DNA from: Parafrankia elaeagni
GTDB taxonomy: Bacteria; Actinomycetota; Actinomycetes; Frankiales; Frankiaceae
Assembly (NCBI RefSeq): GCF_000374165.1
Contig: NZ_KB893726.1
Span: 1-64,000, forward strand
Reading direction: 5' to 3'
Length of the DNA: 64,000 nt
Part shown: positions 2,207-13,846 of the stretch, piece after piece
How positions within the stretch are numbered: the first letter of the stretch is position 1
How the letters are laid out: every line of letters starts with the position of its first letter
Notes under the pieces: model-generated
Databases searched by the model: none
Told to the model about the DNA's origin: nothing
The model's input: only the letters and a program-made list of their open reading frames with translations
Position numbers and translations under genes: made by a program

Positions 2207-3430
2207 CTACCGAACGGAACGCGCGGCCGGCGCCGGTTCCGGTGCAGCTGCCAGCGTGGACCAGTCGATCAGTTGTTCCGTGGCCGTCAGCCGGGCGGCC
2301 AGCAGCACGGCGCCGGTGGCCGGCGAAATCGTGGGCCACACGAAGCGGGCGCCCGGGCTGCCGGCGGTGACGTGGGCGGTGAACGCATCCAGGAAAGCGG
2401 GCCCGGACCGGAAGGCGCCGCCCACCATCGCGACCGGGAAATCTCCGGTGAGACCGGTTCGGGTGATGGCGGTGAGCGTCTGCTCGGCCAGCAGCCGGCC
2501 CGCCTCCGCGAGGATCCCGCGGGCCACCTCGTCACTCCGGTCGCCGCCGCCGCCGCCGCCGCCGCCGTCGCCGCCGCCGTCGCCGTCGCCGCCGTCGCCG
2601 CCGCCGCCGTCGCCGTCGCCGGCATCGGCGCCGTCCTGGCCGCCGCCTGCCGCGGCAGCGGCGACCTCCGCGGCGAACGCGGCGATCCCCGACTTGTCGA
2701 GGGTCGTGTAGACCAGATCGTCGACGTCCTCGACCTGGCTCAGGCCGTAGAAGGTGAGCAGGCGCGGCACGATGGCCGACCACGGGGCCCGGCCGTCGCG
2801 GAAGGCCACGGCCGCCCGGATCCCCTCCAGGCCGATCCAGTGCCCGGAGCCCTCGTCGCCCAGCAGATGCCCCCAGCCGCCGCAGCGCCATGTCCGGCCG
2901 TCGGCGGCCACTCCGAGAGTGTTGCTGCCGGTGCCGCTGATGACCGCCACGCCGGGCCGGCCCAGGGTGCCGGCGGCCCAGGCGGCGACGACGTCGTTGA
3001 GCACCAGCACGTGTTCGACCCGGGCGAGATGGGGCAGCCGATCGCGGAGCGCCGCCTGGTTCTCCTCGGAGTCGGCACTGGCGATCGCGAGGACCGCCCC
3101 ACCCAGGTCGCCGGCGGAGGCACCCGCCGCGTCGAGTGCGCCACGCACCGCCTCCGTGATCGACTCCGCGGCCACATCGAGCCCGTTGACGTCCGGGTTG
3201 CTCGGCCCGGCGGTGAACGTGCTCAGCGCGGCGCGGCGGAGATCGAGGACCGCGGCGGTGGTCTTGGTTCCGCCGCCGTCCACACCGAGGAGGAAGGAGA
3301 CCGGCCCGGCCGGCTGCCGGTCGGCGCCGCGCGCGGGCGGCCGGAGCGCTGCCGGCAGCCTGATCAGCGGGGTCAGGCTCTCCGGTGTGGTGCTCTCCGG
3401 TGTCGTACTCGCCGGCTGTTGGCTGTGCAC
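2207..3430 (-). CDS. N-acetylglucosamine kinase-like BadF/BadG/BcrA/BcrD ATPase
   Basis: Predicted ATP-dependent sugar kinase of the ASKHA fold (N-acetylglucosamine kinase branch). The phosphate-1 loop GVDGGGTKT is at residues about 49-57. A conserved NPDVNG segment, the acidic LNDVVAAW motif, the phosphate-2 loop SGTGSNTLG, the GWGHLLGDEGSG signature of GlcNAc kinases and a C-terminal MVGGAF adenosine loop follow in the expected order. I chose the GTG at 3430 because GAGG lies 7 nt upstream; an ATG at 3520 or 3730 would add residues unlike the family. An insert of roughly 35 Asp/Gly residues (nt about 2541-2650), encoded by GCC/GTC triplet repeats, interrupts the second lobe. It probably loops out, but it could impair the enzyme. 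The substrate is inferred from the family only. Confidence 0.82.
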   Translation of the reverse strand: MHSQQPASTTPESTTPESLTPLIRLPAALRPPARGADRQPAGPVSFLLGVDGGGTKTTAAVLDLRRAALSTFTAGPSNPDVNGLDVAAESITEAVRGALDAAGASAGDLGGAVLAIASADSEENQAALRDRLPHLARVEHVLVLNDVVAAWAAGTLGRPGVAVISGTGSNTLGVAADGRTWRCGGWGHLLGDEGSGHWIGLEGIRAAVAFRDGRAPWSAIVPRLLTFYGLSQVEDVDDLVYTTLDKSGIAAFAAEVAAAAAGGGQDGADAGDGDGGGGDGGDGDGGGDGGGGGGGGDRSDEVARGILAEAGRLLAEQTLTAITRTGLTGDFPVAMVGGAFRSGPAFLDAFTAHVTAGSPGARFVWPTISPATGAVLLAARLTATEQLIDWSTLAAAPEPAPAARSVR

Positions 3431-3834
3431 CTGCTGCCTCGCAATCCCGTCGCGCCAGGCCGGTGGCGGCGCTGGCTGGTTCCCGCGAGCGCGCTCTCGC
3501 GTGGCCCTGTCACTCCGCATCGTGCCGGTCGCCCGGCCCCCGGCCGCGGAGGCCGGACAGTGCCAGCAGCGGTGGGTCCCGTGTGTGGCCCTCCGGTGGG
3601 TGACCGCCGGCCCCTCGGTGGGCGTACGAGGCCCCTGGCCGGACGTCCAGCCCTGACCCGCCCAGGCCGTCCGTCGGCCGTCGGTGCTGCGGTGACGCGG
3701 CTGATGCTGGTGAGTGTCCCCGTCGCGCATGCCGATGCCGCGGGATGTCGGTCCTGCCCGGGCGGGACCTGTGTCCCGCTGTGTGTCCGCTCACTCGACG
3801 TCCTGTGCCGGCCGCGGAAGGAGACGGTAGGACG
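3431..3834. other. Divergent intergenic region
   Basis: The region lies between the divergently oriented sugar kinase and the small acidic protein. Both strands remain open for long distances because of base composition, but the translations are Arg/Pro/His-rich and lack family features. I place both genes' promoters here without being able to name the hexamers. Confidence 0.45.
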
Positions 3835-4290
3835 GTGACCGATGACGACGACGACTGGGCGCCGCCGCCGGTGCCCGACGGAGACGGCGATCCCGTCGCC
3901 GCCGTGGACGAGGCACTCACCGAAGCCGAGGCCGCCCTGCGGGGCTTCGCCTGGCTGCCGGACGCGGACGAGGTCGACGCCGCGACGACGATCCTGTTTC
4001 ACCTCGACCCGGCACGCCGAACCCCGGAGACGCCGCTGCGCCGGGTCCTGCACCAGGCACTGGGGGAGACGTATCCGCAGCTCACCACCTGGCGGCCACG
4101 GCCGCAGTACCTCTACGCGGCGGTGAAGACGCTGCATCAGCTCGCGTCCGACCAGGTGGCCGGGGAGAACAGCGCCGCCCTGCTCGTCGGATGGGACCGA
4201 CTGACCGCGGTGCTGCGCACCGTGACCGCGGCGGCCGGCGGCACGGACCGGGCGGCGCCGGACCCCCCCGGCCCCGGCGCGGGAGCGTGA
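3835..4290 (+). CDS. Small acidic hypothetical protein upstream of the AAA+ ATPase
   Basis: A 151-residue protein read from a GTG preceded by AAGGAG and a nearer GTAGGA. It begins with an acidic run (TDDDDDW) and a Pro/Asp-rich linker. A helical region (about residues 25-125, with AVDEALTEAEAALRGFAWLP) is followed by a Pro/Gly-rich tail. No signal peptide or membrane segment is present. It precedes the DUF5925 ATPase in the same orientation with a gap of about 170 nt, so co-transcription is plausible. I do not recognise the family. Longer starts upstream give a cysteine- and arginine-rich leader without wobble bias and were not used. Confidence 0.65.
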   Translation: MTDDDDDWAPPPVPDGDGDPVAAVDEALTEAEAALRGFAWLPDADEVDAATTILFHLDPARRTPETPLRRVLHQALGETYPQLTTWRPRPQYLYAAVKTLHQLASDQVAGENSAALLVGWDRLTAVLRTVTAAAGGTDRAAPDPPGPGAGA

Positions 4291-4462
4291 CCGATGCCAT
4301 CACGATCACGATGACGGTGATTCGGCACATCACGGACTGTCGTGGACCGTCATGTTGCTTCCGAGACGGAAAAGGGAAACCAGGTGGTGCCGGGAGCACT
4401 CGTCGCCGAGTATCTGTCTCGTGTCCATTCCACGGCAGGGGCCAACGTCCAACGGCGATCGT

Positions 4463-5800
4463 GTGAGGAGTGAGCAACCAGGCCGCGGTGCCGGGGCCAA
4501 GCTTCCCTTCGTCGTCGCTCTCGACGACTCGGACACGCCCTACGACGTCGTCGACGCGCTGGCACTGGGACCGTTCACCAACGGTGACCAGCCCTGGGCC
4601 CGCAGCGTCCGTATCGACCGCCTGCGGCCGGGCGCGAGCCTGCTGCCTGTCGACGCCGAGGTCGTGCGCACCGTTGTGGAGGACTCGCGCGACTCCCGCC
4701 TCGCGACCGGCGACGGCTGGACGGTGCGCGCGGTGCGGTGGCGAGGCGGCAGCGCAGAGGTGCTGGTGACCGCGGTCAGCGAGGAACTGGCCCGTACCGT
4801 TCTGGACGGCGTGGTGCGTCAGGCGGCGGCGGAGTCCGCCACCGAGGGCACCGTCACCATGGGTTTCTGGTATCTGTCGGCGCAGCGCGGGCCGACGCGG
4901 ATCACCCGCCGCGCCGCCACGACGGCGTGGCCGTCGATCCGGCGCAACTACCCGTCGGCGTCTCTGGAGTCGCTGGACCGGCTGATGGGCATGCGCCCCG
5001 AGGCACTCGTGGGCCGGCTGATCCTGCTGCACGGCCCTGCCGGGACGGGCAAGACGACGATCCTGCGCGCCATGGCGCACGAATGGCGGCGCTGGTGCCA
5101 GGTCGACTGTGTCCTCGACCCGGAGGCGCTGTTCGGCGACCCCGGGTATCTGATGGAGGTCGCGATCGGCTCGGATGACGGGGACGACGACGACCCCACG
5201 GACGGTGACGGGGAGAGCCTCGCGCTGGCCAGCGCACCGGGCCCGGGCGAGACGCAGCCCGGGACCACCGCGGCAGCTCCCGGCGGTACCGCGGCTCCGG
5301 CTGCTCCCGAGGTGCCCGCTGCGCCGGCTTCCTCGGGTGCCCCGGAGACACCGCCCGCTTCGGAGACACCGCCCGCTTCGGAGGCGCCGGCCGCTTCGGA
5401 GGCGCCGGCCGTGGAGGAGCGGTCCAGGCGTCGCTGGCGGCTGCTGGTCGTCGAGGACTGTGACGAGCTGCTGCGGGGCGATGCCCGCAGCGTCTCCGGA
5501 CAGGCGCTCTCCAGGCTGCTCAACCTCACCGACGGCCTGGTCGGGCAGGGCCGCGAGGTGCTGGTGGCACTCACCACCAACGAGCCGCTGGCCCGCCTGC
5601 ACCCGGCCATCGTGCGCCCGGGCCGCTGCCTGGCCCAGGTGGAGGTCGGCACGCTGCCACGGGACGAGGCGGTCGCCTGGCTCGGCAGCGGGACGGGGGT
5701 GGCCTCGTCCATGACTCTGGCGGAGCTGTTCGCGCTGCGCGACGGCCGGCTGCCCACCGCAGCACAGGAGAAGGAAGGCCACACCGGCCTCTACCTCTGA
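4463..5800 (+). CDS. AAA+ ATPase with N-terminal DUF5925 domain
   Basis: A 445-residue ATPase. Residues about 12-140 match the DUF5925 region found before AAA modules in actinomycetes (LPFVVALDDSDTPYDVVDAL, then ARSVRIDRLRPGASLLP). The Walker A motif GPAGTGKTT is at about 191-199 and Walker B LLVVEDCDEL at about 328. An arginine-containing HPAIVRPGRC segment near the end resembles the arginine-finger region of FtsH/RuvB-like modules. Between Walker A and B lies a low-complexity stretch (about 260-320) of Pro/Ala/Ser with repeated ETPPASE units. The GTG at 4463 is the first good in-frame start before the conserved region; its ribosome binding site is weak, so the N-terminus is uncertain. The cellular role of this family is not established. 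Confidence 0.8.
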   Translation: MRSEQPGRGAGAKLPFVVALDDSDTPYDVVDALALGPFTNGDQPWARSVRIDRLRPGASLLPVDAEVVRTVVEDSRDSRLATGDGWTVRAVRWRGGSAEVLVTAVSEELARTVLDGVVRQAAAESATEGTVTMGFWYLSAQRGPTRITRRAATTAWPSIRRNYPSASLESLDRLMGMRPEALVGRLILLHGPAGTGKTTILRAMAHEWRRWCQVDCVLDPEALFGDPGYLMEVAIGSDDGDDDDPTDGDGESLALASAPGPGETQPGTTAAAPGGTAAPAAPEVPAAPASSGAPETPPASETPPASEAPAASEAPAVEERSRRRWRLLVVEDCDELLRGDARSVSGQALSRLLNLTDGLVGQGREVLVALTTNEPLARLHPAIVRPGRCLAQVEVGTLPRDEAVAWLGSGTGVASSMTLAELFALRDGRLPTAAQEKEGHTGLYL

Positions 5801-5853
5801 CGCCGCCGGCCGTCCGCTGTCCACTGCCTGTGCCGTCTCTCTCCCCCCGCCTG

Positions 5854-5875
5854 CCGCGCGATGGTTTCCGCGCGG
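5854..5875 (+). terminator. Candidate hairpin terminator after the AAA+ gene
   Basis: CCGCGCG and CGCGCGG form a 7-bp stem around an 8-nt loop, 54 nt after the stop codon. There is no T-tract, as is common for actinobacterial hairpin terminators. Confidence 0.45.
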
Positions 5876-5962
5876 GCATCCGATGCCGATATCGGATGAA
5901 TTTCCGAATCATTCCCGGAATATGGGCGGACTCCGGAGTCCCCGTGGAATGTGCGAAATGAT

Positions 5963-6004
5963 CGCCGTGGCTGCGGGCAGATTCATCTGCCCGCAGCCAC
6001 GGCG
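5963..6004. repeat. Perfect inverted repeat, 20-bp arms, 2-nt spacer
   Basis: The left arm (5963-5982, starting CGCCGTGGCTG) is exactly complementary to the right arm (5985-6004), separated only by TC. No T-run follows. It could act as a very stable RNA hairpin, a dyad protein-binding site or a cruciform. It lies in the long gap upstream of the exopolysaccharide operon. Confidence 0.85.
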
Positions 6005-6605
6005 CCGGTGCTTCTCGCGATGAATGTGGTGCGGCAGGTCGGCGTAACACGCCCGCTGTCGTACTTCGGTGACCGGCGGGGTGTTTTCGACTACTCTTCC
6101 AGGGGCGGGACGGGCATTTGGGGATGCTCTGTTCTCGTTCAATCATCAGTCGATAGGAGTCTGGGGGGTCGGTTCTGGGGTCCGACCGAAATCCACTGGG
6201 GGAATACTGGTGAGACCGCGCCGGGGCGGGCGGGTCCTCGTTCCCGCGCGCACGGTTTCCTGTGCGTGGGCATCGCCGGGCGCGACCGCGTGAGACCGTG
6301 CGGCGCCGGTGTCGTGTGCCTGGCCGGGCGGGCTGCACACGATGCGGCTTCATCGTCTCGACAGTCATCGTCTAGACGGTCGTCCTTCGGGCGTTCATTC
6401 GGCTCTGCCTGACTCGACCCAGCCTCACGACCGCCATGCCCGTCTCCACGGACAAGGCGCGGTCCACGAAGAACGATCAGCGGATCGGACGGCGTAGCCA
6501 TGCCCTCCTCCGCTCAGTTCCGGACGTCTTCGTCCGCCATCGCTCGACACCGCCGGGTCATGCCCATCGCGCACGCCCGGAGCGGGCCCCAAGGAGCTTG
6601 AGATA

Positions 6606-7664
6606 ATGAGAATCTTTGTAGTTGGTTCCGGCGTTGTGGGAACGGCCACCGGCAGAGGGCTGATCGAGACCGGGAACACGGTGACATTCATCGACGCCGC
6701 GCCGGAGCGGGTTTCCTTCCTCGTCGGGCTCGGTCTGGACGCCCGTCTCGACCTCGATCTCGACGTGGAGCCGGACTCCTTCGTCTTCCTGACGCTGCCG
6801 ACCCCGAACGCCGGCAGCCGGTACGACCTCTCCGCGTTCGTCGCCGGTACCCGTACGGTCGGCCGGGCACTGCGCTCCGCCGCCGGCGTGCACACCGTCG
6901 TCGTCCGCAGCACCGTCGACCCGGGCACCACGGAGGGGCTGGTGGGCCCGTTGCTGGAGCAGGAGTCCGGTCTGCGCCAGGGCGACGGCTTCCTGCTGGC
7001 GAGCAATCCCGAGTTCCTGCGGGCGGCGTCCGCGGCCGAGGATTTTCGCTGGCCGTGGATGACCGTCATCGGCGCTCGGAACCGGCGTGTCCAGGAGCGG
7101 CTCGCCGAACTGCTCGCGCCCTTCGGCGGCCCGGTCAGGATCTTCGGTGACCCGATGACCGCCGAGTTCGTCAAATGCGCGCACAACATCTTCAACGCCA
7201 CCAAGATCTCGTTCTGGAACGAGATGCACACCGTCGCGGAGCGGCTCCAGCTCGACCTCGACGCCATCTCCGACACGGTCTCGCGCTCGGCGGAGGCCTC
7301 CTTCAACCCCGGCTACGGCATCCGGGGCGGCGCACCGTACGGCGGTGTCTGCCTGCCGAAGGACACCATGGCCTTCCTCGGGTTCGCAGCGGGCGTCGGC
7401 GTGGACCTGCCGATTCTCCGCTCCGTCATCGAGACGAACACCCGGTTCCTCGACCGCTTCGACCTGCGTGGCAGTGACGGGCTCGACGCGCTGCCCGTCC
7501 GTGCCCGGACCGGCGTGATCGACCGGGCCGCGGTCCTGTCCGCCGGGTCGGTGCAGCCAGGTGCGGGTTGGCCGGTGGATCAGCGCCCCGCTCCGGCTGC
7601 CGAAGGCTTCGGCCCGGCTGCCGAGGCCTTCGGACCGGATTCGGCGGAAGGCACCCCGCGATGA
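6606..7664 (+). CDS. UDP-glucose/GDP-mannose 6-dehydrogenase family protein, C-terminally short
   Basis: Predicted NAD-dependent oxidation of a sugar nucleotide to the uronate (UDP-glucuronate or GDP-mannuronate). The Rossmann loop GSGVVG is at residues 7-12, followed by VVVRSTVDPGTT and SNPEFLR, the central-domain FVKCAHNIFNATK (Lys190) and the catalytic cysteine in GGVCLPKD (Cys249). The protein has 352 residues against roughly 430-460 for the family. After about residue 300 a Pro/Ala-rich tail replaces the C-terminal nucleotide-sugar-binding domain, so either the enzyme works differently or it has lost activity. The start has AAGGAG 9 nt upstream. Its stop overlaps the next start by 4 nt (ATGA), marking it as the first gene of the polysaccharide operon. 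The choice between UDP-Glc and GDP-Man cannot be made from sequence alone. Confidence 0.88.
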   Translation: MRIFVVGSGVVGTATGRGLIETGNTVTFIDAAPERVSFLVGLGLDARLDLDLDVEPDSFVFLTLPTPNAGSRYDLSAFVAGTRTVGRALRSAAGVHTVVVRSTVDPGTTEGLVGPLLEQESGLRQGDGFLLASNPEFLRAASAAEDFRWPWMTVIGARNRRVQERLAELLAPFGGPVRIFGDPMTAEFVKCAHNIFNATKISFWNEMHTVAERLQLDLDAISDTVSRSAEASFNPGYGIRGGAPYGGVCLPKDTMAFLGFAAGVGVDLPILRSVIETNTRFLDRFDLRGSDGLDALPVRARTGVIDRAAVLSAGSVQPGAGWPVDQRPAPAAEGFGPAAEAFGPDSAEGTPR

Positions 7665-8980
7665 GGACCGTGCTGCCCTGGCTGCTGCTTGTCGCCTTCC
7701 TGCGACCCATGATCGAAATCTTCGTCCTCGCGGCCGGAGAATGGTGGTTCCACACTACCTTCCGGCAGAATCGGGACCTCTTCTCCCGTTACATCATCCA
7801 GATCACCACCGTCGGCCGGGAACAGGACCGGGTGAACGAGATCATCCGGGAGATCCGCTCATTCCCGATGACGATGAACTACGAGATCTGGGTGACCAAC
7901 GAGCCGGGGAACGGTGACATCTACCCCGAGGCGGACCGGGTCATCACCGTGCCGAAGGACTTCACCTGCGTCGCCCAGTACAAGGCACGCGCCCTGGAGT
8001 TCAGTCGGATTGTCCGCCAGCATCTCGGCTACGACACGGACGACACGAAAATCACGTTTCTGGACGACGACACCTCGCCGACCTGGGAGTACCTGGAGAC
8101 CGCCTACGCGGCCGACTACGACATCTGCCAGGGTGTCACCGCACCGCGTATCGACTACGGTCGTGGGCCTTTCACGCACTTCCTGCTCAGCCACATCGAC
8201 GACCTGCGTTTCCACAACTGCATGACCTACTGCTCGTCTTTCCAGGGAATTCTGGGCCGACCGCTGTTCGTGCACGGTGAGGGCCTCACGATCACGGGGA
8301 AGACGGAGCGGACCGTTACCTGGAACTGGCGGATCTTTGCCTCCGAGGACCTCACCTTCGGGTGCAACGCCGCTGCCGCCGGGCTGCGCTGGGGCTTCTT
8401 CCACGAGTACATCCAACTTACGTCGCCGTGGACCTGGAAGGCGTACTTCAAGCAGCGCCGCCGGTGGATGTGGGGAAACATCCACGCCATCGTGAACCGG
8501 GACGTCCTGCCGCTCGGTGCCGCGATCCGCATCGCGGTCCGGTACTTCCTGAGCCTGTTCACCTTCCTCGCGTCCGGGTCGGCGATCGTGCTGATCCTGA
8601 CGAACACGATCGAGGTCTCCGGCTGGGCGCACTCGCTGTTCTGGTGCTCTCTCGCGGTCTGGTTGGTGAACTTCGGGCTGAGTGGCTGGGTCAACGCCGG
8701 CCTGCGCCAGCCGGGAGTGAGCAGCGCGAAGTTCTGGACCAACCGTGTCCTGCAGTCCCTCGCCGCCGTCGTGCTCGCGCCGGTCACCGCGACGTTCACC
8801 ATCGTCGCGCTGATCACCACCCTCTACATGGGCAACCCGCGCAGCTTCGAGGTCATCGCGAAGACCGCGGCGACGAGCGGGCAGCGCGAGCGGGACCGCG
8901 GCGACCGCGGCGACAGCGGCGACGCCACAGGCGGCACCGGACGGGTGCCGGCCTCGACCGGTGGGGAGCGACACCGATGA
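7661..8980 (+). CDS. Membrane family-2 glycosyltransferase, putative polysaccharide synthase
   Basis: A 439-residue GT2 enzyme. A hydrophobic N-terminal segment (about 1-30) precedes the cytoplasmic catalytic domain. The metal/UDP-binding acidic motif is DDD at 135-137, the catalytic-base region is SEDLTFG (Glu229-Asp230), and Q265-RRRW is the QxxRW motif of processive synthases (cellulose, hyaluronan and Alg8 types). About three or four membrane spans follow (about 285-400), then a Arg/Asp/Gly-rich tail. The start overlaps the dehydrogenase stop (ATGA), which argues that the uronate made by that enzyme feeds this synthase. The general resemblance is to egghead/Alg8-like GT2 proteins. The polymer is inferred to be a polyuronate because of the neighbouring dehydrogenase and AlgG-like gene; other hexose polymers cannot be excluded. 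Confidence 0.85.
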   Translation: MRTVLPWLLLVAFLRPMIEIFVLAAGEWWFHTTFRQNRDLFSRYIIQITTVGREQDRVNEIIREIRSFPMTMNYEIWVTNEPGNGDIYPEADRVITVPKDFTCVAQYKARALEFSRIVRQHLGYDTDDTKITFLDDDTSPTWEYLETAYAADYDICQGVTAPRIDYGRGPFTHFLLSHIDDLRFHNCMTYCSSFQGILGRPLFVHGEGLTITGKTERTVTWNWRIFASEDLTFGCNAAAAGLRWGFFHEYIQLTSPWTWKAYFKQRRRWMWGNIHAIVNRDVLPLGAAIRIAVRYFLSLFTFLASGSAIVLILTNTIEVSGWAHSLFWCSLAVWLVNFGLSGWVNAGLRQPGVSSAKFWTNRVLQSLAAVVLAPVTATFTIVALITTLYMGNPRSFEVIAKTAATSGQRERDRGDRGDSGDATGGTGRVPASTGGERHR

Positions 8981-10560
8981 CGACGAGCCACCCCGGCCAC
9001 AGCGGGCACGGCGGCCAGACCGACCAACTCAGCCACGGCGGCCAGGCCGGGCCGCTGGGCCGAACCGGGCCGCTGGGCCAGGCCGGGCCGCTGGGCCGAA
9101 CCGGGCCGCTGGGCCAGACCGGGCCGCTGAGCCGAACCGGGCCGCTGAGCGCCGCGAGCACCCTGAGCCTGCCGAGCGGCGGGCCGGACCCGGCGCTCGC
9201 CGCCGAGCTGCTGCGCCGCCAGCGGGCCCGCCACCGCGGCGTGTACCTGCTCCTGGCGGTGATGACCCTGCTCAGCGCGGTCACCCTCAGCGTGACGGTC
9301 GGCCGTGACTACCGCGAGCTGACCTCGACGGCCGAGTTCTTCCACCGGCACGCCTACACACCGTCCTACGACCCGCTCAGCAACGTGATCCTCGGGTTGC
9401 CGCCGAACACGATCGACGTCGCCACCAGCCGGCCCTCGCCGGACATCCGCGGGATCGCGCTGCGCACGAGCGACATCGCCCTGGTCGCCGGTGGCGAGCT
9501 GGTGCGCAGCATTCCGCTTCCGCGCCCGGTCACCGGCCTGATGGACGTTGTCCGCGCCGTCGACGACTCGTCCTGGATCAGTGACGACGGCAACGGGCGG
9601 GTCTCGGTGTCCGCCGCACTCGTCGTTTCACCGGGTGCCGAGCTGACGATCAGCGCGCCGGTGCGGGAGCTGGTGCTGACCGTCCGGCGGGGGGTGCTGC
9701 TCGGTGTCGACGGCGGCCGGCTCACCCTGGACGGGGTGTCCGTCCGCCCGGATGTCCCAGGCGGCGACCCGCTGCTGCTGGCCGTCGACGAGCGGCGCCC
9801 GTTCGTCGTCGCGACGAACCGGGCGACCCTTGTGATCACACGCAGCCACCTGAGCTATCTCGGGCGGGACTGGAACAGCTCCTACGGTGTCTCCTGGTCC
9901 GACGGGTCGACGGGGAGCATGACCCATTCCGAGGTTGATCACAGCTTCATCGGGACGTACACGGACCATGCCCGGGACGTGGCGATCGAGCGAAACTGGT
10001 TCCACGACAACACGCTCTACGGCGTCGACCCGCACAGCTACTCGACCGGAATCGCGGTGCGCCACAACGTCAGTGAGCGCAACGGCCGGCACGGGATCAT
10101 CTTCTCCGACTTCGTCACCGGCGGGGTGGTGGAAGGGAACATCACCCGGGACAACCGCCTCAACGGCATCATGATGGACGCCTCGAGCACCGGTAACCGG
10201 ATCGTCGGCAACATCTCCTCCGGGAACCGGGGCGACGGGATCGTGCTCGCCTCCTCGCCGCACAACGTCATCGCCGACAACCGGATCGTCGACAACCGGG
10301 TCGGCATACAGGCCCGCGGGGAGCGCGAGAACCTGGAGGTCCGCGGCAACACGCTGGTCGACAACCAGCTCGCCGCGCAGGGCGTCGACCTGGCCGGCAA
10401 CACGCTGCGGGACAACGGCAGCCAGTGGCGACCCCGGGTGCTGATCGGCATCTGGTCGTCCGTGCCGGCCGTCCTGGTCCTGCTCGGCGGCGTCACCGGG
10501 CTCGCACGGCGGCGGCGGGCCCGTCACGGCGGCCGCCCCGCTCTGGCCGCCAGGTTCTGA
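8977..10560 (+). CDS. AlgG-like right-handed beta-helix protein, putative uronan C5-epimerase
   Basis: A 527-residue protein with an N-terminal tract of hexapeptide repeats (GPLGRT/GPLGQA, about residues 25-58), one membrane span (about 88-110), an extracellular region, parallel beta-helix coils rich in N-R-I/V-x-x-N turns (about 290-480) and a second C-terminal span followed by basic residues. The segment LYGVDPHSYSTG (Asp351-Pro352-His353-Ser354) and the following RHGIIFSD closely resemble the active-site region of the alginate epimerase AlgG, whose signature is DPHD. Here the last Asp is Ser, while a basic residue (Arg371) just before HGII is retained. AlgG converts mannuronate to guluronate within the polymer. 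The gene starts inside the synthase stop codon (ATGA). The function is inferred from fold, motif and operon; pectate-lyase-like or carbohydrate-binding roles are alternatives. Confidence 0.75.
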   Translation: MTTSHPGHSGHGGQTDQLSHGGQAGPLGRTGPLGQAGPLGRTGPLGQTGPLSRTGPLSAASTLSLPSGGPDPALAAELLRRQRARHRGVYLLLAVMTLLSAVTLSVTVGRDYRELTSTAEFFHRHAYTPSYDPLSNVILGLPPNTIDVATSRPSPDIRGIALRTSDIALVAGGELVRSIPLPRPVTGLMDVVRAVDDSSWISDDGNGRVSVSAALVVSPGAELTISAPVRELVLTVRRGVLLGVDGGRLTLDGVSVRPDVPGGDPLLLAVDERRPFVVATNRATLVITRSHLSYLGRDWNSSYGVSWSDGSTGSMTHSEVDHSFIGTYTDHARDVAIERNWFHDNTLYGVDPHSYSTGIAVRHNVSERNGRHGIIFSDFVTGGVVEGNITRDNRLNGIMMDASSTGNRIVGNISSGNRGDGIVLASSPHNVIADNRIVDNRVGIQARGERENLEVRGNTLVDNQLAAQGVDLAGNTLRDNGSQWRPRVLIGIWSSVPAVLVLLGGVTGLARRRRARHGGRPALAARF

Positions 10561-10561
10561 G

Positions 10562-12703
10562 ATGACAGTCGGTGTGCCACCGGGCGTGGCGGACGGCGGG
10601 ACACCCGCGGAGGTGGCCGGGAGCGACGGGCGGCTGCGGAGGTTCCGCCCGGACATCGAGGGCCTGCGCGCGGTCGCGGTGATCCTGGTCGTGCTCGGCC
10701 ATTCCGGGCTCGCCCTTCCCGGCGGCTACGTCGGCGTGGACGTCTTCTTCGTGATCTCGGGGTTCCTCATCACCCGGCAGCTGGTCACGGAGCGGGCCAC
10801 CCACGGGCGGATCTCGCTCGCCGGCTTCTACGCCCGCCGGGCCCGCCGGATCGTTCCGGCGGCCGCGGTGGTGATCGTGGCGACGATGCTGGCGGCGTGG
10901 CGGTGGATGTCACCGCTGCGCCTCCACTCCACCGGGGTCGACGCCGCGCTCTCCGCGGTCTCGGCGATCAACATCCGGCTCGCCCAGGAGGGCACCGACT
11001 ACCTGCGTGCGGAGGGGCCGCCCTCACCGTTCCAGCACTTCTGGTCCCTGGCGGTCGAGGAGCAGTTCTACGCCGTGTGGCCGCTGCTGCTGATCGTGAC
11101 GGCGGCGCTGGCCGGGCCGGTGCGCAGGCACCGGGCCGGGCCGGTGGCAGTGCTGCTGGTCGTGGTGACGGGCACGTCGCTCGCCCTCAGCGCGGTCATC
11201 ACCCCGCGGTCGGCTCCCTGGGCCTACTTCGGGGGCCACACCCGGGCCTGGGAGCTCGCGCTGGGGGCCCTTGTCGCGCTGGCGGCACCGGGGCTCGCCC
11301 GGATGCCACGAGCGCTGTCATCCCAGCTGACCTGGCTCGGCCTGGCCGGCATCATGGTCGCCGCCACGATGTTCGGGGAGGCCACGCCCTATCCGGGGCT
11401 GGCAGCGGTGCTGCCGGTGGCGGGGTCCGCGCTCGTGATCGCCGGCGGGTGCGCCGCTCCGCCGCGCGGCGCCGAGCTGCTGCTGCGCGCGTGGCCCTGT
11501 CAGCTGATGGGACGGGTGAGCTACTCCTGGTACCTCTGGCACTGGCCGGTGCTGGTCCTGTGGCCGGAGGCCACCGGGGAGCAGCCCGGCACCGCAGGAA
11601 AGATCGCCGCGGTCGTGCTGTCGCTGCTGCTCGCTGTCGCCACCTACCACGCGGTCGAACAGCCGGTCCGGTCCCGGCCGGCCCTGGTCCGCCGGCCGGT
11701 GCTGGGGCTCGGCCTCGGCGGCTTCTCGATCGGCGCCGCGGTGGCCGCCAGCCTGGTGGTCGCCCAGCTCGCCGCCCTGCCCACCGGCTCCGGGGTGCCG
11801 GCGTCGCGTCTTGATACCAGCGACGGGCCGGCAGCCGGCGGGCCGGCAGCCGGCGGGCCGGCAGCCGGCGGGCCGGCGGGCGGCGGGCCGTCCGCCGGCC
11901 TGAGCCGGGTGATCGAGGAGTCGCTCGACCTCACCGGGCTGCCGGCCGGCCTGCGGCCCTCGCTGGACCAGGCGCCGAGTGACTACAAGGCGAACCGGTG
12001 CTACACATCGATCACCAGCAGCACCCCGACCGACTGCGTGTACGGAGACCCGTCCGGCCGGCGGACGGTGGTGCTCTTCGGCGATTCGCATGCCAACCAG
12101 TGGTTCAACGCGATGAACGACATCAGCCGCCGGTACAACTGGCGGCTGGTCCCCTACACGAAGGGCGGGTGCCCGCCGGCGCACTACCCGAACTTCGTCC
12201 TGGAGACCCTCAAGCGTGTCTACACCGAATGCAACACCTGGCGTGCGGAGGCACTGCGCCGGATCAGGACGCTCGCACCCGATCTGGTGGTGGTCGGTTC
12301 CGAGGCCCGGACGGAGGCGATCCGGGTCGGTGCCGGCGGCATGACGAGGATGGTGCGGGAACTGCGCTCGACCGGGGCCAAGGTCGTCCTGATCGCGGAC
12401 ACCCCCTACCCCGGCTTCGACGTCCCGGACTGCCTGGCCCGTAACCCGGGGCATGTGCGGCGGTGTGTCGTACGGGTCTCCGAGGCGAAGCTGACCGAGC
12501 CACAGCGGGCCATCGAGACCCGCGGCGCGCTCGACGGCGGGGCGATGCTGGTGGATCCGGTGCCGTGGCTGTGCTCGAGGGACCAGTGCCCACCCATCAT
12601 CGGCGACACCGTCGTCTACTACGACAAGAGCCATATCACCGGGACGTATTCTGCCGCGCTCGCGCCCTATCTCGGACCGGAACTCGTCCGGCTGGCCGGC
12701 TGA
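10562..12703 (+). CDS. OafA-type acyltransferase with C-terminal SGNH domain
   Basis: A 713-residue polysaccharide O-acyltransferase. The N-terminal acyltransferase-3 domain (about residues 25-395, some ten membrane spans) starts with FRPDIEGLRAVAVILVV and contains GGYVGVDVFFVISGFLIT and FWSLAVEEQFY. A repeated AAGGP linker (about 420-440) joins it to an extracytoplasmic SGNH esterase/transferase domain, with GDSH at 507-510 and the Asp-x-x-His pair (Asp688, His691) in DKSHITG. Proteins of this architecture acetylate cell-surface glycans. The start is 1 nt after the stop of the beta-helix gene, so it is the fourth gene of the same operon and probably decorates the same polymer, as AlgI/J/F/X do for alginate. 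Confidence 0.9.
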   Translation: MTVGVPPGVADGGTPAEVAGSDGRLRRFRPDIEGLRAVAVILVVLGHSGLALPGGYVGVDVFFVISGFLITRQLVTERATHGRISLAGFYARRARRIVPAAAVVIVATMLAAWRWMSPLRLHSTGVDAALSAVSAINIRLAQEGTDYLRAEGPPSPFQHFWSLAVEEQFYAVWPLLLIVTAALAGPVRRHRAGPVAVLLVVVTGTSLALSAVITPRSAPWAYFGGHTRAWELALGALVALAAPGLARMPRALSSQLTWLGLAGIMVAATMFGEATPYPGLAAVLPVAGSALVIAGGCAAPPRGAELLLRAWPCQLMGRVSYSWYLWHWPVLVLWPEATGEQPGTAGKIAAVVLSLLLAVATYHAVEQPVRSRPALVRRPVLGLGLGGFSIGAAVAASLVVAQLAALPTGSGVPASRLDTSDGPAAGGPAAGGPAAGGPAGGGPSAGLSRVIEESLDLTGLPAGLRPSLDQAPSDYKANRCYTSITSSTPTDCVYGDPSGRRTVVLFGDSHANQWFNAMNDISRRYNWRLVPYTKGGCPPAHYPNFVLETLKRVYTECNTWRAEALRRIRTLAPDLVVVGSEARTEAIRVGAGGMTRMVRELRSTGAKVVLIADTPYPGFDVPDCLARNPGHVRRCVVRVSEAKLTEPQRAIETRGALDGGAMLVDPVPWLCSRDQCPPIIGDTVVYYDKSHITGTYSAALAPYLGPELVRLAG

Positions 12704-12704
12704 C

Positions 12705-12759
12705 CTTTCACCCAGCCACCTTCCCGGCTTTCCGGACCCCGCGTCCGGTCCAGTGAAAG
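12705..12759 (+). terminator. Stem-loop after the acyltransferase gene
   Basis: An outer 7-bp stem (CTTTCAC with GTGAAAG) encloses a 6-bp hairpin CCGGAC-CCCGC-GTCCGG at 12732-12748. It begins 2 nt after the stop and separates the four coupled genes from the lyase-like lipoprotein gene. Confidence 0.55.
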
Positions 12760-12900
12760 GAAGGGGTCGGAGGGGGACGGAAGCAGCCGGCACGCCGGTT
12801 CCCTGAATACGTAGGACGCCGTCCGGGCGGGTTCTAGACTGCCCGCGGCCGGGAGAGCGCGCCGGCCGGGAAGTCGTTGGGCGGTTCGCGCGGGTCGGGG

Positions 12901-12927
12901 GATTCGCGCGTCGGGGACGCGCGAATC
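12901..12927 (+). promoter_or_regulatory. Leader hairpin upstream of the lyase-like gene
   Basis: GATTCGCGCGT and ACGCGCGAATC are perfectly complementary (11 bp) around CGGGG. The structure ends 16 nt before the GTG start and just before the GGGGGAG ribosome binding site. A related TTCGCGCGGGTCGGGG sequence lies directly upstream. It could be an operator or a translational or attenuation hairpin controlling the lyase-like gene separately from the four-gene operon. Confidence 0.5.
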
Positions 12928-12943
12928 AGGGGGAGTCGTCGGG

Positions 12944-13846
12944 GTGAGCGCACCGTCGCGGCGGGCCGTCGCCGTCGTGGCACTGCTCGGCGCGGCCGGG
13001 GCCGGGGCCGGTGGCTGCACGTCCGACGGTGGCCGTGGCCGTGGCCGTGACCGTGACCGGGAACCGGCGGTGCGCCTGGCCACGACGGCCGGGCCGGCAC
13101 CGGTGGCTCCGCACCTGCAGAGCTTCTTCGGTGACGAGCTCGTCATCCGCCAGCGCGGGGCGTTCGGTCTCGACGATGTGGCGGTGCGGGCGCCGGCCCC
13201 GGGCTGCGGGTGGAGATCCATCCGGGTCCGCTACCCGGCCGGCTCGGCCAGCCAGCTGTCCGTGCAGGAGGACGGAGCGCCGTCCGGCGGGGCGCAGGCC
13301 TACCTGCTGTTCCGCGGCGGGCCGCGTGACGACCTCTTCCTGAGCTATCGCGTCCGTTTTCGGAGTGGTTTTCGGTTTGCCCGCGGTGGAAAACTCCCTG
13401 GATTCTTCGGCGGTACACACGTGGCCGGTGGGCACACCCCGGACGGTACCAATGGATTTTCGACAAGATACATGTGGCGTGACGGTGGGAAAGGGCAGGT
13501 CTACGCGTATCTCCCACTGTCCCGTGATTACGGGACGACGCTCGGCCTGGGCACCTGGGAATTCGTCCCGGGTCGCTGGGCGGCCATCCAGCAGCGGGTG
13601 CGGCTGAACACCCCGGGCCGGGCCGACGGGTCGCTGACCGTCTGGGTCGACGGCCGCGGGGTGTTCCACCAGGACGGCATGCTCTTCCGGAGCACGCCGT
13701 CACTGCGGATCGACGGTGTCTTCTTCTCCACCTTCTTCGGTGGCGACGACCTCAGCTGGGCCAGCCCGATCGACCAGTACGCGGACTTCGCCACCTTCGT
13801 GGTCTCGGACCGCTTCGTCGAGGCTGGTCCCGCCGGAACCTGCTGA
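12944..13846 (+). CDS. Lipoprotein with polysaccharide lyase family 14-like (alginate lyase-like) domain
   Basis: A 300-residue exported protein. The signal sequence ends in a lipobox with Cys25 (AGAGGC), so it should be anchored in the membrane outer face. The beta-jelly-roll region contains LSYRVRFRSGFRFARGGKLP (Gly148-Gly149-Lys150), GFSTRYMWR, YAYLP, W-FVPG-W, QRVRLN, DG-L-VWVDG and a final FFSTFFGGDDLSWASP. These are the successive strands of PL14-type alginate/glucuronan lyases and their relatives. GTG is the start, with GGGGGAG upstream. It follows the polysaccharide operon with its own leader, fitting a role in trimming or releasing the polymer, as AlgL does for alginate. The exact substrate and catalytic residues were not confirmed. 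Confidence 0.75.
   Translation: MSAPSRRAVAVVALLGAAGAGAGGCTSDGGRGRGRDRDREPAVRLATTAGPAPVAPHLQSFFGDELVIRQRGAFGLDDVAVRAPAPGCGWRSIRVRYPAGSASQLSVQEDGAPSGGAQAYLLFRGGPRDDLFLSYRVRFRSGFRFARGGKLPGFFGGTHVAGGHTPDGTNGFSTRYMWRDGGKGQVYAYLPLSRDYGTTLGLGTWEFVPGRWAAIQQRVRLNTPGRADGSLTVWVDGRGVFHQDGMLFRSTPSLRIDGVFFSTFFGGDDLSWASPIDQYADFATFVVSDRFVEAGPAGTC

Follow-up and report, generated by a model that had tools for sequence, protein, structure and literature searches.

A conserved five-gene cluster in Parafrankia elaeagni as a candidate alginate-type exopolysaccharide operon with a distinct dehydrogenase-glycosyltransferase core

Can a one-membrane cell make an alginate-type polymer, and with which enzymes? The question is raised by five neighboring genes in the 7.59-Mb genome of Parafrankia elaeagni, located within the first 64 kb of an 81.6-kb contig (C57; NZ_KB893726.1), the 64,000-nucleotide stretch that was analyzed and that we refer to here as the window. 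They code for a short nucleotide-sugar 6-dehydrogenase (DH), a membrane glycosyltransferase of family 2 (GT2), a beta-helix protein resembling AlgG, a membrane acyltransferase fused to an SGNH domain (AT3-SGNH), and a polysaccharide lyase of family 14 (PL14). The alginate operon of Pseudomonas and Azotobacter contains AlgD, Alg8, Alg44, and AlgK/E/G/X/L/I/J/F/A, and it likewise encodes together a precursor DH, a membrane GT2, an AlgG-type epimerase, acylation, and a lyase. The initial annotation of the window read the cluster as a candidate alginate-like operon. The reading that we find probable, with some room for doubt, is that a one-membrane cell here has an operon for a synthase-dependent exopolysaccharide of the alginate type, built around a DH-GT2 core of its own.

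The five-gene cluster is a real, conserved operon. All five open reading frames (ORFs) are where they had been placed, at positions 6606 to 13846, on the plus strand, and Pfam confirmed their families (Table 1). The DH and GT2 genes overlap by 4 bases, as do the GT2 and beta-helix genes; 1 base separates the latter from the acyltransferase gene, and 240 bases lie between this and the PL14 gene. A survey of gene order in relatives, proposed with the initial annotation, covered the 10 further GT2 carriers. Nine of them share the whole set in an identical arrangement, which is therefore not due to chance; in the tenth (G026), a contig ends after the beta-helix gene, and the acyltransferase and PL14 genes start another contig. 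Best-segment identities in the carriers are 70 to 87% for the DH, 82 to 97% for the GT2, 59 to 93% for the beta-helix protein, 60 to 93% for the acyltransferase (in one locus, L013, matched in two segments), and 55 to 94% for the PL14 protein, and the ORFs are open in the relatives that were read. The GT2 was detected in 11 of 98 relatives (E 1e-20), and a class-wide search of 394 genomes (E 1e-15) also gave 11, the carriers being all seven genomes of genus g1 and four of the eight of genus g6, with close relatives in Parafrankia colletiae, P. soli, Parafrankia sp. EUN1f, Frankia nepalensis, Frankia sp. AgB1.9, and Frankia sp. EI5c. Across 36 Frankiaceae genomes, the GT2, the AlgG-like protein (E 1e-15), and a close form of the PL14 protein (at least 183.8 bits) occur in the same 11, and the other 25 have neither a GT2 nor an AlgG-like match. 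The genes are linked and the species related, so the co-occurrence counts as a few events, not eleven.

By sequence, the best solved relatives of the beta-helix protein are four AlgG entries (1.2e-25 to 2.2e-24), followed by AlgE6 and AlgE4, and the NCBIfam model of AlgG matches it with 99.5 bits (E 1.8e-28). Its structural model has a mean pLDDT of 76.9, with ten-residue means of at least 84 over residues 131 to 480 except for 261 to 270 (65). When this model was compared with the PDB by Foldseek, the first four matches were again AlgG (1.7e-15 to 3.5e-14), with the fifth at 1.1e-07. The AlgG-type active-site segment pointed out initially is present at residues 348 to 353, where Y348, D351, and H353 have aligned counterparts in the AlgG segment YGIDPHD and the AlgE6 segment YGFDPHE; the structure 4nk8, titled AlgG D317A, has Ala at the residue aligned with D351. 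Sequence, fold, and the active-site Tyr, Asp, and His all place the protein with the AlgG-type C5-epimerases, and we propose it as a putative extracellular mannuronan C5-epimerase that would act through these three residues. Hydrophobic segments at residues 87 to 110 and 486 to 510 would anchor both of its ends in the membrane. The N-terminal tail, whose length differs among relatives, is encoded in part by repeats (window positions 9047 to 9150) giving GPLGRTGPLGQ.

The lyase belongs to PF21294, with an alginate lyase as its best solved relative (7.9e-29). Residues K150, S173, R175, Y187, and Y189 are identical in the alignment with 5gmt and invariant in all nine proteins aligned; they correspond to the Lys/Ser/Arg/Tyr/Tyr set of AkAly30. 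An N-terminal hydrophobic stretch ends near C25, which is also invariant (9/9), and the protein is probably a lipoprotein, in agreement with the PL14-like lyase lipoprotein of the initial annotation.

The same DH-GT2 pair is linked to alginate lyases of a further family, PL7, in two unrelated settings. Within the 36 Frankiaceae genomes, PL7 (E 1e-5) is found in four, all of them among the 11 GT2 carriers, for which the chance is 0.0056 under an assumption of independent genomes that does not hold here. The PL7 gene lies about 0.8 kb from the start of the DH gene in three of the four (G011, G029, and G026) and elsewhere in G003. The closest matches of the enzyme of G011 (locus L020) are AlgAT5 (8.4e-61) and a polyguluronate lyase (9.1e-55), whereas a glucuronan lyase matches it only weakly (1.1e-05). 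The second setting is a phage contig from IMG/VR (L059; IMGVR_UViG_3300010885_087330), on which a short DH, a GT2 44% identical to that of the window, and a PL7 gene adjoin one another (positions 4540 to 7771). Both PL7 proteins combine a PF08787 score above the cut-off with motifs of the RSELR, QIH, and YFKAG type, which are presumably those of PL7. A phage portal protein (272.4 bits) is also encoded on the contig, as is a putative terminase, an ORF judged by eye that has no Pfam match. INPHARED phage records gave no match to the GT2 of this contig, and the stretches examined around three distant viral GT2s (24%) matched neither a DH nor a lyase. A polyuronate-making set in a phage is reminiscent of the chlorella viruses, which carry a hyaluronan synthase. 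Beyond the PL7 gene of the g6 cluster, positions 2519 to 3979 of L020 code for another beta-helix protein with a signal-like N terminus, an AlgG score of 55.7, and YGLDGHDDS replacing YG.DPH, a possible second, extracellular epimerase.

Searches of the phylum found clear GT2 relatives outside the family only in the genomes G546 and G570 (at E 1e-5, 4 matches in 296 genomes, among them the genome of the window itself and a weak one in G446 at 9.4e-09; at E 1e-15, 3 matches in 396, again counting the genome of the window; the sets overlap), each of them the sole match in its own class (1/198 and 1/27). The distant actinobacterium G546 (L039) has the DH, GT2, and AlgG-like genes in the same order, with best-segment identities of 45, 40, and 31% and the segment YGIDPHT, followed by a gene for a GH113 protein. 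Further away, a GT2 of a haloarchaeal plasmid (L042, positions 6851 to 8978), which may be a mannan-type synthase, is linked to that of the window by profile comparison (probability, 99.2) and adjoins a gene annotated as GH26. Both GH113 and GH26 are families that include beta-mannanases.

The QxxRW motif expected of a membrane GT2 occurs as QRRRW at residues 265 to 269, and the protein, 81 to 97% identical across the eight relatives aligned, is the most conserved of the four members that were aligned. We propose it as a putative polyuronate (mannuronan) synthase. A resemblance to egghead-like beta-1,4-mannosyltransferases is conceivable. It has no NCBIfam family up to E 1, and its only sequence match to a solved chain, a short DnaJ-like one, was taken as chance. 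Similarity to Alg8, with which a comparison had been proposed initially, was not detected: when it was compared with two Rhizobium Alg8-type proteins, the hhalign probability was 0.1, the BLASTP E value was 0.39, and the best Pfam family was different. These values led us to reject a close relationship with Alg8, which is all that the comparison excludes, as hhalign has low power here and also missed another GT2 family (probability, 5.9). The structural model is weak (mean pLDDT, 58.8), and its top Foldseek matches are the mannosyltransferase PcManGT (8.3e-06), the chlorella virus hyaluronan synthase (1.4e-04), and BcsA (1.4e-04), at 11 to 13% identity; we take it to indicate a processive-type GT2 fold and nothing more.

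A mannosyltransferase as first structural match of this weak model, together with the GH113 and GH26 genes beside relatives of the GT2, would also suit a mannan-based polymer, either of mannose and mannuronate or a partly oxidized mannan. Here the GT2 would use GDP-mannose, and the short DH would act unusually, without a nucleotide-binding domain; the C-terminal domain is indeed absent from all seven short DHs compared. However, an AlgG-like protein together with alginate lyases of two families leads one to expect a polyuronate, and the DH keeps its catalytic-type residues, so we regard such a polymer as quite unlikely.

The DH, for which a comparison with AlgD had been proposed initially, is cut short. 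The NAD-binding and central domains and the catalytic Lys and Cys of the UDP-glucose/GDP-mannose DH family are present, but the C-terminal domain (PF03720) has no Pfam match in the window DH or in the relatives examined, and what follows the central domain is a variable, low-complexity tail. In 10 Frankiaceae relatives the ORF has 325 to 393 residues, and the alignment, which took in nine of them, is conserved to about residue 285 and then passes into a variable linker; elsewhere the DH has 310 (L038), 285 (L039), or 297 (phage L059) residues. The catalytic-type residues E136, K200, N205, C249, and D253 are present in all seven short DHs compared. A frameshift or an adjacent gene as the source of the missing domain was rejected, since similarity to the C-terminal domain below E 0.9 was found in none of 14 short-DH loci while the same queries were positive in all seven control loci. 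A tree of 19 DHs sets the seven short forms apart from 12 full-length ones (99.7/100 with LG+G4 and 96.4/97 with WAG+G4+F). A complex of DH and GT2 as the way in which the DH holds its nucleotide is a guess on our part.

Several observations weigh against an alginate-type product. The best solved relative of the DH is a UDP-glucose DH (1.3e-37), slightly ahead of a GDP-mannose DH (4.4e-35), and the domain that it lacks binds the nucleotide in known DHs. The tree of 19 DHs groups the short forms with neither the AlgD-type nor the UDP-glucose-type enzymes, labels that we assigned from neighbors and annotation, and for this reason it was rejected as an arbiter of the donor sugar. The beta-helix protein falls far short of the curated equivalog cut-off of 700 for AlgG, below which the AlgG domain of Rhizobium also lies, and the Arg of the AlgG segment IISREV, presumably an active-site residue, is not kept; the equivalent is FSDFV, FSEDV, or FSDNV in Frankiaceae (FSDFV in Parafrankia) and LSKEV in L039. 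No PL7 was found (E 1e-5) in the genome of the window itself or in six other carriers of the 11, and the DH-GT2 pair of G570 (L038) is accompanied by no match to the window epimerase or PL14 on its 13.7-kb contig, where PL7 was not sought. More distant PL14 forms (83.3 to 127.2 bits) occur in 8 of the 25 Frankiaceae genomes without the GT2, and PL14 adjoins a full-length DH in a second Frankiaceae uronate locus.

This second locus is found in the same genome (L048; G000:C48:212000-231500) and shares with the window cluster a DH, a GT2, a beta-helix protein, and a PL14 protein (90.7 bits), but the DH is full-length, the GT2 is a different one whose best match is PF13641, and the beta-helix protein is large. 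A like set occurs in G015 (L050), which was scanned with hidden Markov models, and there the beta-helix protein has an AlgG score of 24.3 versus 99.5 in the window; L051 (G009) and L052 (G007) look alike as judged by ORF starts and PL14 positions alone. An AAA/guanylate-cyclase-type protein is encoded nearby in both L048 and L050. Because of this locus and of the distant PL14 forms in noncarriers, PL14 alone is not diagnostic of alginate, and we rejected it as proof.

Mainly on account of the second locus, which shows PL14 with another uronate set, we retain an alternative in which UDP-glucuronate would be made into a different polyuronate, such as a mixed uronan or beta-1,4-glucuronan, on which an AlgG-related epimerase and a PL14 lyase would act. 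Such a product would fit the slightly better match of the DH to a UDP-glucose DH, as well as its higher identity to two haloarchaeal AglM proteins (34.6 to 37.1%) than to three AlgD-type DHs (30.4 to 32.3%), although the DH of L039 shows the opposite (31.3 to 33.1% versus 32.5 to 35.6%). It fits less well with the PL7 alginate lyases that adjoin the cluster and the phage pair, of which that of L020 resembles a glucuronan lyase only weakly, with the difference in AlgG score between the two loci, or with the GH113 and GH26 genes beside relatives of the GT2. The loop ahead of the catalytic Cys also speaks for the other side, as in the short DHs it is about one residue from the AlgD-type length, while that of UDP-glucose-type DHs is two residues shorter than in the AlgD type. 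We judge this alternative to be unlikely, if one to keep in mind. An alginate-type product, for its part, is favored by the sequence, fold, and score by which the window protein resembles AlgG, by the alginate lyase that is nearest the PL14 protein, by the shared occurrence of GT2, AlgG-like protein, and close PL14 form, by PL7 near the DH in three carriers, by the phage set of DH, GT2, and PL7, by the distant DH-GT2-AlgG-GH113 arrangement, by the GH26 gene beside the haloarchaeal GT2, and by PcManGT as first PDB match of the weak GT2 model.

The only NCBIfam match of the AT3-SGNH protein, which we propose as a putative polymer O-acylation enzyme, is the mycobacterial succinyltransferase SucT, at 225.7 bits and far below the cut-off of 1275. 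This match would also suit genes that make no free polymer and instead decorate a wall glycan or a lipid, or with a decayed locus. That the most conserved member aligned is the GT2, with its motifs intact, that the ORFs stay open in relatives, and that lyases act on polymers make either case very improbable.

The genes around the cluster look unrelated to it; they code for a BadF-type ATPase protein and an AAA/DUF5925 protein, with Tex downstream on the opposite strand. PilZ had no match among the 5 cluster and 7 flanking proteins, a search of the locus and not of the genome elsewhere, and this agrees with the initial remark that no Alg44-type c-di-GMP receptor is encoded here.

Table 1. Features of the window cluster and the PL7 genes of related loci. 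Positions are those of the window for the first five rows and of the respective locus for the last two.
Feature	Position	Strand or orientation	Evidence
DH, short nucleotide-sugar 6-dehydrogenase, 352 aa	6606-7664	+	UDPG_MGDP_dh_N and central domain (Pfam)
Membrane GT2, 439 aa	7661-8980	+	Glyco_trans_2_3, 111.2 bits; DDD, SED, and QRRRW motifs
AlgG-like beta-helix protein, 527 aa	8977-10560	+	NosD/Beta_helix (Pfam); YGVDPH segment
AT3-SGNH membrane acyltransferase, 713 aa	10562-12703	+	Acyl_transf_3 and SGNH fusion (Pfam)
PL14 polysaccharide lyase, probable lipoprotein, 300 aa	12944-13846	+	Polysacc_lyase_14 (PF21294), 184.5 bits (cut-off, 27)
PL7 alginate lyase of G011 (L020)	4222-5115	divergent, upstream of DH	PF08787, 132.6 bits; YPRSELREM, GQIHD, YFKAG
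PL7 of phage L059	7025-7768		PF08787, 107.9 bits; PRNELRQ, GQVHD, FFKAG

Compared with the operon of Pseudomonas and Azotobacter, the window cluster has a short DH, a GT2 without detectable similarity to Alg8, and no PilZ domain among the 12 proteins; AT3-SGNH replaces AlgI/J/F/X, and PL14, joined in some relatives by PL7, replaces AlgL (PL5). In a Pfam search of the locus, the genome elsewhere not being searched, neither AlgI/J/F/X nor AlgL was found, and the idea of acylation and lyase steps as in Pseudomonas gives way to one of other families. What stands of the alginate-like operon first described is the AlgG-like protein, the gene order, and the PL14 lyase, while the DH, the GT2 (in a low-power test), and the acylation and lyase families depart from it. 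Of the conditions named initially for refuting that reading, two were examined, best structural matches in unrelated pathways and a gene order not conserved in relatives, and both came out in its favor. Because a full AlgD, an Alg8 (again by the low-power test), an Alg44 in the locus, and AlgI/J/F/X with AlgL are missing, we class the cluster as a functional parallel to alginate synthesis and do not count it among the operons of that family.

Two alginate-type operons lie on megaplasmids of nodule-associated Rhizobium (L040 and L041), in which, as in the window, a DH gene stands beside those for a GT2 and a beta-helix matching AlgG, here the C-terminal part of a protein of about 1250 aa; the region is unannotated in the records. 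Their DHs differ in being full-length (439 and 453 aa), and L040 differs further in a GT2 of PF13641 and in a PilZ match that barely clears the cut-off (22.6 versus 22.5 bits). The AlgD and Alg8 labels on these loci are our own, assigned from gene order, and NCBIfam names no family for the GT2 of L040. Two other plasmids carry related DHs. In Deinococcus aetherius (L065, positions 1 to 2562), a DH that groups with the AlgD type adjoins a gene for an "alginate lyase family protein" and a GT4 gene, and in Loktanella (L066, positions 2761 to 6672), a DH that groups with the Rhizobium AlgD-type enzymes precedes genes for a glycosyltransferase and a hypothetical protein; this may be a further operon of the alginate type.

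If the window cluster is an alginate-type operon, its products would act in succession. The short DH would form the uronate by oxidizing a sugar nucleotide, for which GDP-mannose is the likeliest candidate, and the GT2 would polymerize the uronate and extrude the chain through the membrane. Outside the cell, the membrane-anchored AlgG-like enzyme would convert part of the mannuronate to guluronate, the AT3-SGNH protein would attach acyl groups to the polymer, and the PL14 lipoprotein would trim or release chains.

No description of this five-gene cluster was among the literature matches listed, a coverage that leaves out most subscription journals and preprints. The portions of PMC11468063 that deal with the subject describe alginate synthesis among bacteria for Azotobacter and Pseudomonas. 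For brown algae, they state that no functional validation has identified a mannuronan synthase, that the GT2s are not homologous to Alg8, that the closest bacterial relatives of the C5-epimerases are actinobacterial (about 30%), and that an actinobacterial origin of the dehydrogenase is weakly supported. Transfer of the alginate-specific steps from an ancestral actinobacterium is proposed in the relevant part of PMC8307928, and other origins for some pathway genes are given in that of PMC5778160. A sporangium-matrix cluster of Actinoplanes was considered as a relative and rejected, its Alg6_Alg8 domain being cited, in the section of PMC12691653 concerned, to the yeast glucosylation gene ALG8.

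We put forward, as a possibility short of a probable one, that the DH and GT2 form a second, independently built mannuronan machine, in which a domain-stripped GDP-mannose DH and a mannan-synthase-like, non-Alg8 GT2 would work in close concert and move between actinobacteria and phages, with AlgG-like, PL7, PL14, or GH113 proteins added as needed. If true, this would provide a concrete actinobacterial candidate for the type of pathway from which brown algae are proposed to have received alginate synthesis, and it would also offer a lead towards the brown-algal mannuronan synthase. An alginate-type operon that serves a single membrane and relies on another synthase would reveal how a polymer of this kind can be made without an outer-membrane export system and would give a compact enzyme set for tailored alginates. 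It would also supply particular genes with which to test whether brown-algal alginate has the actinobacterial origin that has been proposed.

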